A stretch of 64,000 bases of DNA from Flavobacterium macrobrachii (GTDB taxonomy: Bacteria > Bacteroidota > Bacteroidia > Flavobacteriales > Flavobacteriaceae), in NCBI RefSeq assembly GCF_014486675.1, contig NZ_JACTAC010000002.1:1-64000 (forward strand), in the 5' to 3' direction. This document shows positions 31,586 to 49,842 of the stretch, one piece after another. Made by a program: the position numbers and the translations under genes. The notes beneath the pieces were generated by a model. That model made no database searches. It had not been told where the DNA came from and saw only the letters and a program-made list of their open reading frames with translations. Numbering within the stretch: position 1 is the stretch's first letter; every line of letters begins with the position of its first letter.

Positions 31586-31601
31586 AGTTTCACGTGGAAC
31601 A
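31586..31601. promoter_or_regulatory. parS centromere-like site 1
   Basis: AGTTTCACGTGGAACA matches the ParB-binding consensus TGTTNCACGTGNAACA in 15 of 16 positions. It is intergenic, between the methyltransferase and mnmG genes. Two further copies lie within 2.3 kb. Confidence 0.85.
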
Positions 31602-31685: not shown

Positions 31686-33554
31686 CTATCTTCCCATATA
31701 GATTAATAAAACGGATATATCAGCTGGAGAAACACCGCTAATTCTAGAGGCTTGGGAAATTGTTACCGGACGAATAGCTGATAATTTTTGCTTTGCTTCT
31801 ATCGACATTGATTTGATTTTATGATAATCAAAGTTGGTCGGGATTTTAATATCCTCTAAACGGATTAATTTTTCAGCATTATTTCGCTCTTTTTCGATAT
31901 AACCTGAATATTTTACCTGAATTTCGGCTTGTTCGATGATTTCTTTGTCTAGTTCGTTCTCCTGAATGTAGTTTTGAACCTTTTCAAACTTCAACATATC
32001 GTTCAAATCAATTTGCGGACGAGAAAAGACTTTAAACATTTTATCCGATTGTGTCATTGGTGAACTTTCTTTTTCTTCCAATATCGGATTAGTTTCTTGT
32101 GGCGTAATACTCGTTTCTTTGAAGAAATCAACCATTTTTTCACTTTCGTTGAATTTATGCTCCATTCTGCGCAATCTTTTTTCGGAAGCTAAACCAATTT
32201 CGAAGGATTTTGGCGTTAAACGGAAATCAGCATTATCTTGACGCAATAATGTTCGATATTCGGCTCGCGAAGTAAACATTCTATAAGGTTCTTCCGTTCC
32301 TTTGGTAATCAAATCGTCAATTAAAACACCTATATACGCTTCATCACGACGTAAAATCAACGGTTCTTGTTCTTTTACTTTTAATGCTGCGTTAATTCCA
32401 GCCATTAAACCTTGAGAAGCGGCTTCTTCATAACCGGTTGTTCCATTTATTTGTCCAGCGAAATATAATCCGTCAACTAATTTAGTTTCTAACGTATGTT
32501 TTAGTTGCGTTGGTGGAAAATAATCATATTCTATGGCATAACCTGGACGGAAAAACTTCACCTTCTCAAATCCAGCAACCGAACTCAACGCTTTGTACTG
32601 AATATCTTCAGGTAATGACGTAGAAAATCCGTTGACGTAAACTTCAACAGTATTCCAACCTTCGGGTTCTACAAAAAGTTGGTGTCTTTCTTTATCAGCA
32701 AATCGATTGATTTTATCTTCAATCGATGGACAATATCTTGGTCCAATACTTTTTATTCTTCCGTTGAACATTGGACTTCTATCAAAACCTTCACGAAGAA
32801 TATCGTGAACATCTAACGAAGTATAGGTCATGTGACACAATTTTTGATGAATTAACGGTTTCGTCTCATCAGAATAAGAGAATTTATCTGGAATTTCATC
32901 GCCTGGTTCTTCACGCATTTTTGAATAATCCAACGAACGTCCATCAACTCTTGGTGGCGTTCCGGTTTTCATTCGTCCAGCTTCAAAACCAACTTTTTTC
33001 AAATCTTCTGTAATTCCGAATGCGGCACTTTCTCCTGCTCTTCCACCACCGAATTGCTTTTCTCCAATATGAATTAATCCATTCAAAAACGTTCCGTTTG
33101 TCAAGACAACGGTTTTGGCCTTGATTTCAATTCCAAGCGAAGTTACAACGCCTTCGATTTTATTATTTTTTATCAAAAGTCCTTTGACCATTTCTTGATA
33201 GAAATCTAGATTTGGTGTGTTTTCCAACATTAATCGCCATTCTTCCGCAAAACGCATTCTGTCTGATTGAACTCGTGGCGACCACATTGCCGGACCTTTT
33301 GATTTATTCAGCATTTTGAACTGAATTGCCGTTTTATCAGAAACAATTCCGGAATATCCGCCAAGCGCATCGATTTCGCGAACGATTTGTCCTTTGGCAA
33401 TTCCGCCCATTGCTGGATTGCATGACATTTGGGCAATGTTTTGCAAACTCATTGTTACCAACAAGGTTTTGCAACCCATATTGGCTGCCGAAGCTGCTGC
33501 TTCGCAACCTGCATGTCCTGCTCCAACTACTATTACATCGTATGTGTTAAACAT
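31686..33554 (-). CDS. mnmG: tRNA uridine-5-carboxymethylaminomethyl(34) synthesis enzyme MnmG (GidA)
   Basis: The 622-residue flavoprotein works with MnmE to modify U34 of certain tRNAs. The FAD-binding start DVIVVGAGHAGCEAAASAANMG is at residue 6. Family blocks are MSCNPAMGGIAKGQIVREIDALGG, TNGTFLNGLIHIGEKQFGGGR and GTPPRVDGRSLDYSKM. The C-terminal helical domain ends in ISQASRISGVSPADISVLLIYMG. It is flanked by parS sites on both sides, and gidA is origin-proximal in many bacteria. Confidence 0.96.
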   Translation of the reverse strand: MFNTYDVIVVGAGHAGCEAAASAANMGCKTLLVTMSLQNIAQMSCNPAMGGIAKGQIVREIDALGGYSGIVSDKTAIQFKMLNKSKGPAMWSPRVQSDRMRFAEEWRLMLENTPNLDFYQEMVKGLLIKNNKIEGVVTSLGIEIKAKTVVLTNGTFLNGLIHIGEKQFGGGRAGESAAFGITEDLKKVGFEAGRMKTGTPPRVDGRSLDYSKMREEPGDEIPDKFSYSDETKPLIHQKLCHMTYTSLDVHDILREGFDRSPMFNGRIKSIGPRYCPSIEDKINRFADKERHQLFVEPEGWNTVEVYVNGFSTSLPEDIQYKALSSVAGFEKVKFFRPGYAIEYDYFPPTQLKHTLETKLVDGLYFAGQINGTTGYEEAASQGLMAGINAALKVKEQEPLILRRDEAYIGVLIDDLITKGTEEPYRMFTSRAEYRTLLRQDNADFRLTPKSFEIGLASEKRLRRMEHKFNESEKMVDFFKETSITPQETNPILEEKESSPMTQSDKMFKVFSRPQIDLNDMLKFEKVQNYIQENELDKEIIEQAEIQVKYSGYIEKERNNAEKLIRLEDIKIPTNFDYHKIKSMSIEAKQKLSAIRPVTISQASRISGVSPADISVLLIYMGR

Positions 33555-33807: not shown

Positions 33808-34227
33808 TCAGTGTTTCACGTGGAACATTTTGATTTTTTCGTCTTCCTTTTGTCGCATTACCTTTTCATCGCTTTCGGATTTATCTTTGTAACCGCAATA
33901 ATGCAAAACGCCATGAACCATTACACGTTTCAATTCTTCTTGGAAAGAAACGTTGAAATCTAGCGCGTTTTCCTTCACTCTTTCGATGGAAATAAAAATA
34001 TCGCCGTGTAAATCGTTTCCTATAGAATAATCGAAGCTAATAATATCGGTTAACGTGTCGTGATTGAGATATTGCTGGTTGATTTCGAGCAAATAATCGT
34101 CGTCACAAAATATATAATTGATTTCTCCTTCGGTTTTGTTTTCGGAAGTAATTACTTCGGAAAGCCAATCTTCGTATGATTGCTCGTCTTCGAGCGTGAA
34201 ATCTAATTCGTAATTAAAACTAATCAT
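33808..34227 (-). CDS. ybeY: rRNA maturation endonuclease YbeY
   Basis: The 139-residue protein belongs to the YbeY family, which processes 16S rRNA. The core motif reads VMVHGVLHYCGYKDKSESD near residue 107. Two of the three zinc-binding histidines are there (HGxLH), but the third (GYDH) is replaced by Lys-Asp. FCDDDYLLEINQQYLNHDTLTDIISFDY matches the family N-terminal block. The last codons, encoding MFHVKH, coincide with a parS site. The gene overlaps the DUF4175 gene by 8 bp. Confidence 0.9.
   Translation of the reverse strand: MISFNYELDFTLEDEQSYEDWLSEVITSENKTEGEINYIFCDDDYLLEINQQYLNHDTLTDIISFDYSIGNDLHGDIFISIERVKENALDFNVSFQEELKRVMVHGVLHYCGYKDKSESDEKVMRQKEDEKIKMFHVKH
33812..33827. promoter_or_regulatory. 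parS centromere-like site 3, inside the ybeY 3' end
   Basis: Read on the minus strand the sequence is TGTTCCACGTGAAACA, the canonical bacterial parS sequence in all 16 positions. It is in frame within ybeY and encodes the final residues FHVKH just before the stop. Confidence 0.92.
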
Positions 34228-44159: not shown

Positions 44160-44519
44160 ATGGGAACAATAAAATTACAAAATATACGAACTTTTTCATT
44201 TCACGGTTGTTTGGTAGAAGAGGCAAAGATAGGTTCTGACTATCGAGTTGATTTGGAAATTAAAACTGATTTGAGGAAATCTTCTTTATCAGATGAGTTA
44301 AAAGATACGGTTGATTATGTGCTTCTAAATAGGATAGTGGAAGAAGAAATGGCAATTCGCTCTAAATTATTAGAACATGTTGCACATCGAATTATAAAAA
44401 GGATTTTTGATGAAATACCTTCTGTTTCTAGAATTCTATTAGCGGTTTCAAAACTAAATCCACCAATTGGCGGTGATGTTGAAGCGGTTACAATTGAAAT
44501 GGAAGAATATCGAAATTAA
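44160..44519 (+). CDS. folB: Dihydroneopterin aldolase
   Basis: The 119-residue protein makes 6-hydroxymethyl-dihydropterin in folate synthesis. Family features are IKLQNIRTFSFHGCLVEEAKIGSDYRVDLEI at the N-terminus, DTVDYVLLNRIVEEEMAIRSKLLEHVAHRI with the conserved Glu, and LAVSKLNPPIGGDVEAVTIEM near the end. The length is normal. The tRNA-Cys gene follows in the same direction. Confidence 0.92.
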   Translation: MGTIKLQNIRTFSFHGCLVEEAKIGSDYRVDLEIKTDLRKSSLSDELKDTVDYVLLNRIVEEEMAIRSKLLEHVAHRIIKRIFDEIPSVSRILLAVSKLNPPIGGDVEAVTIEMEEYRN

Positions 44520-46225: not shown

Positions 46226-48406
46226 CTATTCATTTCTTCTAATAAAGTGAAAATCCAATTGTTTTTTAACCAAATCGGCAGTTTTTACTTTTACATAAAC
46301 TTCATCTCCAAGTTGTAGTAAACCTTTAGAAACTTGTCCAACCAATGCATACTGCTTTTCATCAAAAACATAATAATCTTCTTTTATTTCACGAATTCGA
46401 ACCATTCCTTCGCATTTATTTTCGATAATTTCTACATAAATTCCCCATTCGGTTACACCTGAAATTACGCCTAAAAATTCCTGGTCTTTGTGATCTTGCA
46501 TGTATTTAACTTGCATGTATTTCACAGAATCTCTTTCGGCTTGTGCAGCTAAACCTTCCATATCGCTTGAATGAGCACATTTTTCTTCGTAAATTTCAGC
46601 ATCGGCAGATTTTCCTCCATCTAAATAAAATTGCAATAATCGATGCACCATTACATCGGGATATCTTCGAATTGGCGATGTGAAATGACTATAATAATCA
46701 AAAGCTAATCCATAATGACCAATATTTTCAGTTGAATATTTTGCTTTACTCATACTTCGAATGGTTAACGTATCGACTAAATTTTGTTCTTTTTTACCAT
46801 TTACCTCATTCAATAAATTGTTTAATGATTTTGAAATATCTTGTTTGGATTTCATATTGATTGAATAACCAAATTTCGAAATAACTGTTTGAAGGTTTAT
46901 CAATTTATCTTCATTAGGTTCATCGTGAATTCTATACACAAAAGTCTTCTTTTGTTTTCCAATAAATTCAGCTACTTTTCGATTGGCTAAAAGCATAAAT
47001 TCTTCAATCAAATGATTAGCATCTTTAGAAACTTTAAAGAAAACGCCAACAGGTTCAGCTTCTTCATTTAAATTGAATTTTACTTCTACTTTATCAAACG
47101 AAATTGCGCCAGCTGCCATTCTTTTTCTACGAAGAATTTTAGCTAATTCGTCTAATTTTAAAGTTGCTTCAACGATTGGTTTTGGAACTTGATATTCCTT
47201 TCCGGTAAGAGAAATTTCAGCCGGAATTACATCTGTTTTAGTTTCAATAATTTGCTGTGCTTCTTCATAAGCAAATCGTTGATCCGAATAAATCACGGTT
47301 CGACCAAACCATTGATTGACAACTTCTGCTTTTGGAGTTAATTCAAAAATAGCTGAAAATGTATATTTTTCTTCATGTGGACGAAGTGAACAAGCAAAAT
47401 TTGATAAAACTTCCGGTAACATTGGAACAACTCTATCCACTAAATATACTGAAGTTGCTCTGTTATACGCTTCATCATCCAAAATTGTTCCTTCTTGTAA
47501 ATAATGAGAAACATCGGCAATATGAACACCAATTTCAAAATTTCCGTTGTCTAAAACTTGAAACGATAATGCATCATCAAAATCTTTTGCATCTTTTGGA
47601 TCAATAGTAAATGTTAATACATCGCGCATGTCACGACGTTTTGCTATTTCATCAGCAGTAATTGAAGTGTCTAATTTATTAGCATAAGCATCAACTTCAA
47701 TAGGAAAATCATAAGGCAAACCATATTCGGCTAGAATCGCATGAATTTCAGTGTTATGTTCGCCTGGTTTTCCTAGAACTTTAATAACGGAACCAAAAGG
47801 AGAATCGGCTTTTGCTGGCCAATCTTCTAGTTTTACTAATACAACATCACCGTGTTGAGCATCGGCTAATTTATTTTTTGGAATAAAAATATCAGTGTAC
47901 ATTTTAGCATTGGCAGTCGTGACAAATCCAAAATTCTTTTGAATATCAATAACACCAACAAACTCTGTTTTATGTCTTTCAATAATTTCAATTACTTCTG
48001 CTTCTGGTTTTCTAGAACTTCTTCTATTATAAACATAGGCTTTCACTTTATCGCCATCTAAAGCATGATTCAAATTTATAAACGGAATATAAACATCATT
48101 CTCTAATTCATCACAAACAAAATATCCTGCTTTTCTAGAAGTCATATCAACAACACCTTCATAATATTGCTGGCTAGATGCTTTAACTAAATACTTTCCA
48201 GGTTCGGATTCAATAATCAACTTTTGAGCTGCAAGGATTTTTAAATCTTTAATAATTTCGTTTCTACTTTTAGTATCATCGACTTCAAGAATAGCAGCTA
48301 TTTGTTTGTAATTGAATGGTTTATTGGCATTTTTTGATAATATTTTAAATATCTTTTCGGAAAATGTTTTCTCTTTTTTTCCAAATTTTTTTGGTTTCTT
48401 ACTCAT
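46226..48406 (-). CDS. rnr: Ribonuclease R
   Basis: The 726-residue 3'-5' exoribonuclease degrades structured RNA. Domains in order are an N-terminal winged helix (PFNYKQIAAILEVDD), cold-shock domains (about 70-220), the RNB catalytic domain with the metal site TFTIDPKDAKDFDDALSF near residue 270, SPIRRYPDVMVHRLLQ near 580, and a C-terminal S1 domain (FLGVISGVTEWGIYVEIIE). It is the last leftward gene before the candidate origin. Confidence 0.95.
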   Translation of the reverse strand: MSKKPKKFGKKEKTFSEKIFKILSKNANKPFNYKQIAAILEVDDTKSRNEIIKDLKILAAQKLIIESEPGKYLVKASSQQYYEGVVDMTSRKAGYFVCDELENDVYIPFINLNHALDGDKVKAYVYNRRSSRKPEAEVIEIIERHKTEFVGVIDIQKNFGFVTTANAKMYTDIFIPKNKLADAQHGDVVLVKLEDWPAKADSPFGSVIKVLGKPGEHNTEIHAILAEYGLPYDFPIEVDAYANKLDTSITADEIAKRRDMRDVLTFTIDPKDAKDFDDALSFQVLDNGNFEIGVHIADVSHYLQEGTILDDEAYNRATSVYLVDRVVPMLPEVLSNFACSLRPHEEKYTFSAIFELTPKAEVVNQWFGRTVIYSDQRFAYEEAQQIIETKTDVIPAEISLTGKEYQVPKPIVEATLKLDELAKILRRKRMAAGAISFDKVEVKFNLNEEAEPVGVFFKVSKDANHLIEEFMLLANRKVAEFIGKQKKTFVYRIHDEPNEDKLINLQTVISKFGYSINMKSKQDISKSLNNLLNEVNGKKEQNLVDTLTIRSMSKAKYSTENIGHYGLAFDYYSHFTSPIRRYPDVMVHRLLQFYLDGGKSADAEIYEEKCAHSSDMEGLAAQAERDSVKYMQVKYMQDHKDQEFLGVISGVTEWGIYVEIIENKCEGMVRIREIKEDYYVFDEKQYALVGQVSKGLLQLGDEVYVKVKTADLVKKQLDFHFIRRNE

Positions 48407-48517: not shown

Positions 48518-48751
48518 ATGAAGAATTTCATCACGATTGCAGTATTTAATTTTCCACAAGAAATTGTAGTTCTGAAATCTATTTTAGAAAACGAAGGTAT
48601 TGTTCATTACTTCGAAAATGAAACGATTATTTCTGTTGATCCTTTTGCAAGCATTGCTTTTGGTGGAATTAAACTAAAAATTCATCCCAACGATATAGAA
48701 ATGGTTCAAATGATATTAGATAACCTCAATTCTAATTTAGAAATTGTGTAA
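48518..48751 (+). CDS. DUF2007 domain protein
   Basis: The 77-residue protein matches the small DUF2007 fold: FITIAVFNFPQEIVVLKSILENEGIVHYFENE then a GIKLKIHPNDIEMVQMIL ending. It is cytosolic and of unknown role. It is divergent from rnr and is the first rightward gene at the point where gene direction switches. A near-consensus TACCTTTA -7 element lies at 48496-48503. Confidence 0.82.
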   Translation: MKNFITIAVFNFPQEIVVLKSILENEGIVHYFENETIISVDPFASIAFGGIKLKIHPNDIEMVQMILDNLNSNLEIV

Positions 48752-48915
48752 AATAAAAATTCATTTTTACTAAAATTTAAAAGTTGTCAACATATATTAA
48801 AAACAACAAAAAATAATTTTAAAAAATTTAAAAAAAATGATGGTTATTATAGTGTGTTAATAGTTACAATAACTTTTTTAGAAAATACATCTTTTAAAAG
48901 TTATCTATAGTTATA

Positions 48916-49043
48916 AACAGAAATTAACAATGTAAATAAATTGTAAAGTTCTAAAAATGAATTAAATTTTAGTTTTTATTAACAGTTGTTAACATATGAA
49001 AAAATAGTGAAAATGATAATAAGTTTAGTTGTTAATTTCTGTT
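48916..49043. repeat. 15-bp inverted repeat inside the candidate origin
   Basis: AACAGAAATTAACAA (48916-48930) is the exact reverse complement of TTGTTAATTTCTGTT (49029-49043). The 98 bp between them contain several more TTAACA motifs, including a palindromic TGTTAACA. The symmetry suggests paired protein-binding sites. Confidence 0.7.
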
Positions 49044-49376
49044 GAAAACCATGTTGAAAATGCTGATAAATTTTCCAAAAAAAAGCGAAACTAAATTTGA
49101 TTTTTTTAATTCAATTTTTGATTAGAAAAAAAAGAAATACAACCAAAAAAAACTTCTAATTTTCTATCCAAAGTTGTTAACAATTGATGTTAAATTAAGG
49201 TTAACTGAATATCAGATAATTACAAAACACTATTAACATACTATAATTTTAACATTTATTATAAATTTTATTTAATGATTTTGAGATAGTTATAAAAAAT
49301 AAACAACGATAATTTTTTATTATATTTTAATTATCAAGTAGTTAGAATAAACATAAAAATAAACCAATACTTTACC

Positions 49377-49384
49377 TAAATTTG
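49377..49384 (+). promoter_or_regulatory. -7 element of rpiB
   Basis: TAAATTTG matches the -7 consensus 26 bp before the rpiB start. No TTG lies at the -33 position. Confidence 0.45.
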
Positions 49385-49410
49385 TAACATAAAACAACAC
49401 ACAAAATACA

Positions 49411-49842
49411 ATGAAAATCTCTATTGGAAACGATCATGCTGGACCAGATTATAAAATCGCCATTGTTAACTATTTACAATCCAAAGGATACGAAATTTTA
49501 AATCACGGAACCGATACTTTCGATAGCGTTGATTATCCAGATTTTGGCCATCCAGTTGCAATTGATGTTGAAACAGGAAAAGCTGATTTAGGAATTGTAA
49601 TTTGTGGTTCTGGAAACGGTATTGCAATGACTGCTAATAAACACCAAGGCATTCGTTGCGCACTTTGTTGGACAAAAGAAATTTCAGCGCTAGCTCGCCA
49701 ACACAACAATGCAAACGTAGTAAGTATTCCGGCACGATTTACTTCTATTCAACAAGCTGTTGAAATTGTGGATACATTTTTAACTACCGATTTTGAAGGC
49801 GGAAGACATGCTAATCGAGTAAATAAAATAGCTTGTTCGTAA
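49411..49842 (+). CDS. rpiB: Ribose 5-phosphate isomerase B
   Basis: The 143-residue enzyme interconverts ribulose 5-phosphate and ribose 5-phosphate. LacAB/RpiB motifs are IGNDHAGPDYK, DSVDYPDFGHPVA, LGIVICGSGNGIAMTANK with the catalytic Cys, and HNNANVVSIPARFT. The length is typical. It is the first gene to the right of the candidate origin and is directly followed by a small membrane-protein gene with no gap. Confidence 0.95.
   Translation: MKISIGNDHAGPDYKIAIVNYLQSKGYEILNHGTDTFDSVDYPDFGHPVAIDVETGKADLGIVICGSGNGIAMTANKHQGIRCALCWTKEISALARQHNNANVVSIPARFTSIQQAVEIVDTFLTTDFEGGRHANRVNKIACS

Follow-up and report, generated by a model that had tools for sequence, protein, structure and literature searches.

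Among the described replication origins that most closely resemble the locus considered here is the oriC of Escherichia (E.) coli and Yersinia, found between gidA (also named mnmG) and mioC, as predicted for Yersinia in PMC10225481. The shared traits are an AT-rich spacer with DnaA-type nonamers and the neighborhood of mnmG, but here mnmG is 16 kb away, no TTATCCACA-type box is found within one change and the flanking genes are different. In the Bacillus subtilis-type BUS origin, DnaA boxes are combined with DnaA-trios. The present locus has a similar box cluster adjoining an AT-rich run, but its trios are not above chance: using the criterion that at least three NAN triplets occur no more than 16 bp from a box (PMC8287927) and a strand rule that we derived ourselves from 3'-GAT-5', trios were found at 91 of 188 boxes as compared to 91.9 in the control.

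In Bacteroidetes, oriC is commonly distant from dnaA (PMC4755523). The predicted origins of Prevotella intermedia, Elizabethkingia meningoseptica, Mariniflexile and Algorimicrobium are likewise distant from dnaA, at or near the turn of the GC skew. The former two were called with E. coli-type boxes (for Elizabethkingia, far from dnaA, see PMC8994065), and the latter two with Ori-Finder 2022, which by default uses the E. coli-type box TTATCCACA (PMC10225481) and which puts oriC at or beside mnmG (PMC12843772, PMC11278836). In contrast, the locus described here displays the nonamer TTNTYAACA in the spacer upstream of rpiB. The published origin calls that we found for the family involve tools with the E. 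coli box as default, placement at mnmG, or a dnaA that does not fit the skew (PMC11278836, PMC12843772); a figure legend in PMC11278836 swaps genes, giving mnmG for ter. Our literature search found nothing that pairs rpiB with oriC or an origin of replication in Flavobacteri*; DoriC was outside this search and may list the site. As far as the literature was searched, three points described below are new, namely the word that defines the boxes, an address shared across the family and the repeated relocation. Together with a 130-bp model, this address and box word would make it possible to locate origins in draft genomes, to estimate growth rates from coverage and to build oriC plasmids, while the relocated cases offer a natural experiment on what fixes the place of an origin and how strand composition follows the direction of replication.

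Here, we analyzed a stretch of 64,000 nucleotides (the window) from Flavobacterium macrobrachii, the genome of which comprises 3.45 Mb in 234 contigs; among the named relatives compared, Flavobacterium solisilvae displays the highest identity (RpiB 97%, Rnr 94%). An initial annotation had proposed that oriC, away from dnaA, is located in the spacer at 48752-49410. The best explanation of the data is indeed that this spacer is the chromosomal replication origin, presumably DnaA-dependent with a variant box, a reading to which we assign a probability of about 93%. What the data show is the box cluster, its conservation, its coincidence with the skew minimum and a strand composition of rnr and glnS that is opposite in genomes with the conserved module on their other side.

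The spacer upstream of rpiB

The spacer and its surroundings comprise the following features:

31586-31601, + strand: parS-like site, 2 mismatches, from the genome scan
31686-33554, - strand: mnmG (gidA), PF01134
33812-33827, + strand: parS-like site, 1 mismatch, the best match in the genome
37814-39325, + strand: gltX, PF00749; in some relatives, the module is found upstream of it ("address B")
46226-48406, - strand: rnr (RNase R), PF00773, E 9.5e-111
48518-48751, + strand: gene for a 77-aa protein, weakly DUF2007-like (E 0.079 for the protein itself)
48752-49410, no strand: putative oriC spacer ("address A"), from the small + strand gene to rpiB; no gene, AT-rich, densest box cluster, conserved non-coding DNA
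48808-48838, no strand: 31-bp A/T-only run, candidate unwinding site
49411-49842, + strand: rpiB, PF02502, E 3.3e-57

The 659-bp spacer has a GC content of 17.1%, as compared to 31.9% for the whole window, and no open reading frame of at least 30 aa is found between the end of the small + strand gene (48751) and rpiB, i.e., the stretch is gene-free and AT-rich, as first described. The small gene itself is present, but its initial assignment to DUF2007 is weak; the matches of four homologs all fall under the Pfam cut-off (best 7.4e-5). The hexamer TTAACA occurs six times and its complement TGTTAA five times, and this total of 11 (about ten had been noted) compares to 2.8 expected, a count of 11 being reached in none of 2000 Markov shuffles. 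Outside the spacer, a scan of the window in steps of 50 gave at most three per 654-bp stretch. Two TGTTAACA palindromes, also noted initially, are the only ones in the window. The plasmid collection and a distant blastn search with the spacer gave no match.

An easily melted AT-rich stretch, typical of an oriC, is found at the 300-bp scale, where the two weakest duplex stretches of the window start at 48728 and 49092, both in or overlapping the spacer; at the 50-bp scale, two places elsewhere in the window are weaker. With 37 bp, the window's longest run of A and T only is at 44513, outside the spacer. A 15-bp inverted repeat (48916-48930 / 49029-49043), previously listed among the origin features, is exact, but we discount it as evidence because a perfect repeat of this length also appeared in one of 12 shuffles and the left arm is altered in nearly all of nine aligned relatives.

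The direction of the genes switches at the spacer, as had been pointed out: among non-overlapping open reading frames of at least 80 aa, 14 of 14 on the right run rightward and 30 of 45 on the left run leftward. The nearby parS sites referred to in the initial annotation are real. Both are within 18 kb of the spacer, and the genome holds six such places within two mismatches as compared to one for the reversed control. They flank the ends of mnmG, and the site at 33812-33827 is inside the end of ybeY.

Predicted variant DnaA boxes and the conserved module

The boxes and conserved elements of the spacer are listed below; counts out of 55 refer to an alignment of 54 chosen loci that carry a conserved 20-mer, plus the window.

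48772-48883, + strand: left module (model R1), matched in 96/101 genus-set and 109/149 family-set genomes, window included
48784-48792, + strand: variant DnaA box TTGTCAACA, present in 53/55 aligned sequences
48843-48862, + strand: conserved 20-mer GTTATTATAGYKTGTTAATA, strongly conserved in the module alignment
48855-48863, - strand: one-mismatch box CTATTAACA, overlapping the conserved 20-mer
48976-48984, + strand: variant DnaA box TTATTAACA, a box nearby in 24/55
48986-48994, + strand: variant DnaA box TTGTTAACA, overlapping the palindrome 48987-48994
49040-49048, - strand: variant DnaA box TTTTCAACA, a box nearby in 47/55
49052-49060, - strand: variant DnaA box TTTTCAACA, from the nonamer scan
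49174-49182, + strand: variant DnaA box TTGTTAACA, forming a palindrome with an overlapping - strand box (49175-49183); a + strand box nearby in 42/55
49230-49238, + strand: one-mismatch box CTATTAACA, from the nonamer scan

A box is also found near window position 48921 in 37 of the 55 aligned sequences; the window itself holds the TTAACA half only. The predicted boxes follow the word TTNTYAACA, which is found 25 times in the whole window, with seven copies clustered in the spacer as compared to 0.7 expected from dinucleotide-matched shuffles. In a set of 34 spacers, of which 27 (with that of the window) are from genus-set loci and seven from single-contig genomes, 190 copies were counted against 18.4 in shuffles. 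The individual forms TTATTAACA (48 vs 2.9), TTGTTAACA (47 vs 2.2), TTTTCAACA (41 vs 2.2) and TTATCAACA (38 vs 0.8) are all enriched in these 34 spacers; TTTTTAACA is not (7 vs 8.4). No copy of the E. coli box TTATNCACA is found in the 34 spacers (2.1 expected), i.e., an origin with E. coli-type boxes is not seen here, and the window's spacer has no nonamer within one change of TTATCCACA. Within two changes there are 10 (2.9 expected) rather than the three initially counted. Judged from these sequence counts, the informative unit is the nonamer TTNTYAACA, not TTAACA or the near-E. coli boxes. As a marker, TTAACA alone was rejected as less specific, its densest stretch lying elsewhere in the relatives G058 and G073 and being tied in G045.

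A full-length alignment of the spacer was obtained across ten sequences. In its left 130 bp, a box is followed by an AT-rich stretch and then by GTTATTATAGYKTGTTAATA, at almost fixed spacing. The 20-mer is found within two mismatches in 82 of 101 genomes (reversed control, 34). A sequence-only model of the module, R1, built from 35 sequences including that of the window, matched 96 of the 101 genomes of the genus set (genus in the broad sense) at E 0.01, leaving five without a match, and at E 0.001 it matched 109 of 149 family-set genomes, or 108 of 148 genera, leaving 40 genomes without a match; the window's own genome is included in these counts. Considering only the best R1 match per genome (weaker second matches were dropped), the module is located at most 3.5 kb upstream of rpiB and on the same strand in 79 of the 96 genus-set and 102 of the 109 family-set matches. 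Of the seven remaining family-set matches, four are not on the rpiB contig and three are in genomes without an rpiB match. Of the 17 remaining genus-set matches, nine share the rpiB contig at a distance of 11.6-75 kb and one is 4.2 kb away; four are on another contig, one is a weak match at 62 kb (G084) and two are in genomes without rpiB. The module thus holds a conserved place, normally one per genome, with some copies relocated, and the motif array recurs in the corresponding spacer of most relatives, as the initial annotation had anticipated for an origin. In the genome with the 4.2-kb distance (G099:C34:10081-10205), an insertion between origin and rpiB is suggested.

A GC content of 17% might by itself raise the prospect that the spacer is a sequence-neutral AT-rich stretch, the motif cluster being a by-product of base composition. 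We regard this as scarcely credible, as dinucleotide-matched shuffles give 2.8 hexamers and 0.7 nonamers where the spacer has 11 and 7, and the presence of the left module in 108 of 148 sampled genera refutes neutrality.

The dnaA gene of the source genome is on another contig than the window, and in ten single-contig relatives it is found 0.87-1.29 Mb from the module. These putative origins are therefore not dnaA-adjacent, in agreement with the distance from dnaA originally suggested. The 500 bp upstream of the genome's own dnaA hold one box, at -495. In G096, a single-contig genome, the dnaA match at G096:C1:1660812-1661296 is in two overlapping pieces, one with internal stops, indicating a broken gene or an assembly error.

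When the DnaA of this genome is compared to domain IV of E. coli DnaA (1j1v, the chain of which we take to start at residue 374 for the numbering), Arg399, Arg432, Asp433, His434, Leu438 and His439 are kept, and Thr435 and Pro423 are both replaced by Ala. Residues 399, 423, 432-435 and 438-439 make base-specific contacts, and variation at 423 in Epsilonproteobacteria was judged probably not to be responsible for specificity (PMC5043019). Because residue 435 is among the base-contacting residues and is altered here, Thr435Ala is a candidate cause of the change from C to A at box position 6.

In the proposed mechanism, DnaA, encoded far off on the chromosome, would bind the TTNTYAACA cluster at 48784-49238 and the left module at 48772-48883. 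Its assembly would melt the AT-rich flank, i.e., the A/T-only run at 48808-48838 or the equally weak right end, the helicase would be loaded, and forks would depart from the spacer in both directions.

GC skew and the position of the probable origin

The GC skew was sampled around four single-contig chromosomes (about 20 samples of 20 kb each). Left of rpiB, samples were negative in 9/10 (G058) and 10/10 (G045) cases, and right of rpiB they were positive in 9/9 and 7/9, respectively. The skew is weak in G022 (8/10 negative on the left, 6/9 positive on the right), where the module is 75 kb from the rpiB used for centring, and in G073 (5/9 and 10/10).

Contiguous stretches of 64-400 kb were analyzed for eight single-contig relatives and for the window, i.e., the skew minimum of the source genome refers to the window. 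The cumulative minimum was found at most 1.8 kb from the start of rpiB in eight of the nine stretches, at -1125 (window), -1029, -256, -668, -1799, -870, -724 and +477 bp; in G058 it was at -14591 bp. The densest 600-bp cluster of TTNTYAACA was within about 1.1 kb of the skew minimum in all nine, although this cluster is thin in G073 (three boxes as compared to two in the next-densest stretch). In G058, where rpiB lacks a module, the cluster, which gives a weak R1 match (E 9e-5), and the skew minimum are about 15 kb off, between ybeY and gltX. Because minimum and cluster coincide away from rpiB in G058 and at the spacer in the others, we place the origin at the box cluster, not at rpiB. In the relatives, the skew minimum suggested in the initial annotation as a check thus coincides with this spacer, except in G058, where it coincides with the moved cluster. 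In the interval from -11.5 to -1 kb, the skew of G058 is near zero (-0.014) rather than positive, as compared to -0.046 to -0.147 in the other eight.

Could oriC instead be located next to mnmG, some 16 kb leftward, the rpiB spacer being something else? Ori-Finder predictions near mnmG have been reported for two other Flavobacteriaceae (PMC12843772, PMC11278836), and mnmG is 16-20 kb from rpiB in eight of ten single-contig relatives. The cluster and minimum of G058 are flanked by the ybeY-mnmG pair on one side and gltX on the other, and G022 and G076 carry the module at most 2 kb from mnmG. However, the window holds no dense box cluster near mnmG (the second-densest 600-bp stretch among those listed has two boxes and is right of rpiB), and the skew minima are at rpiB in eight of nine genomes, so that an origin at mnmG appears very unlikely. 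As a gap of 16 kb is small on a whole-chromosome plot, the published mnmG predictions may point at the same origin.

Local minima of the skew within ±10 kb were surveyed in 67 of 80 loci, the 13 shortest or most truncated being omitted. They were found elsewhere in the module-at-rpiB loci L204, L208, L222, L228, L254 and L256, and still at rpiB in F. supellecticarium and F. enshiense despite a module at gltX. Given these discordant loci, local minima were judged unreliable as an origin marker.

Modules at gltX

In G009, G011, G020, G058, G072 and G080, the module is located 0.5-1 kb upstream of gltX, on the gltX strand. The named genomes with this placement are F. supellecticarium, F. enshiense, Flavobacterium sp. 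NKUCC04_CG, the MAG Lapin-020 and two Myroides species, M. indicus and M. albus; the modules of M. albus and G020 have identical coordinates. The rpiB address is empty in G011, F. supellecticarium and F. enshiense, where the small gene and rpiB are separated by 39-46 bp. On these sequence positions, the putative origin in some relatives is at another, nearby place to which it has moved; most relatives carry it at the rpiB spacer, but, as an amendment to the initial annotation, the link to rpiB is not universal. Because rpiB is the family-wide place, the moves were probably from rpiB to gltX. A quick Rnr tree of 49 rows, with Pustulibacterium as the root, requires three changes of the address label, at least two of them forced by starred branches; F. 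enshiense and the window's species belong to one starred group with ten members.

These relocations bear on the view that the spacer serves rpiB as a conserved regulatory leader, i.e., a promoter array or the sites of another regulator, rather than an origin. Such a leader would account for the position of the module upstream of rpiB on the same strand in 102 of 109 family-set matches, but not for modules upstream of gltX, 12-16 kb from rpiB, for an rpiB address that can be empty, or for a skew minimum and strand composition that track the module and not rpiB; we consider it more improbable still than an origin at mnmG.

With oriC assigned to the module, rnr and glnS, which are located between the two addresses and keep their gene direction, would be replicated in opposite directions in the two arrangements. 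Loci were classed as module-at-rpiB (67) or module-left-of-gltX (10), with L213 dropped and 12 loci unclassed. The third-position GC skew of the rnr coding strand is positive in 47 of 65 module-at-rpiB loci and negative in 9/9 module-left-of-gltX loci; for glnS, the values are 44 of 52 positive and 7/7 negative. The contrast is less for lysE (33 of 63 positive vs 9/9 negative) and lipo (26 of 61 positive vs 8/9 negative), smaller genes in the same interval. A difference is also seen for rpiB, which is a leading-strand gene in either arrangement (the median is -0.19 for module-at-rpiB loci, with mostly higher values in the gltX group, in a Mann-Whitney comparison that ignores kinship and includes L213, where the place of the module is unsure). 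Because rpiB is expected to be unaffected by the change of address, single short genes are noisy, and kinship leaves only two (at most three) independent relocation contrasts, too few for a sign test.

The combined picture, to which we give slightly better than even odds, is that Flavobacteriaceae have their oriC at rpiB with a shifted DnaA code (C to A at box position 6, Thr to Ala at residue 435), and that the origin is a relocatable module that would have moved independently at least twice to the same address left of gltX, reversing the replication of the approximately 11 kb between.

Other arrangements were also seen. Three named Myroides, i.e., M. marinus, Myroides sp. 1354 and NP-2 (L215, L217, L218), have the module at a distance of 31-35 kb on the left side of gltX; these three and the mnmG-proximal modules of G022 and G076 look as if a rearrangement had broken the gltX side of the origin. 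Among Avrilella, Paenimyroides and Capnocytophaga (L205, L209 and L213), the first two have only weak module matches, off both addresses, and Capnocytophaga has none. In Pustulibacterium (L249 / G232:C20:89899-90004), a second, inverted weak module match is found across rpiB (E 7e-4).
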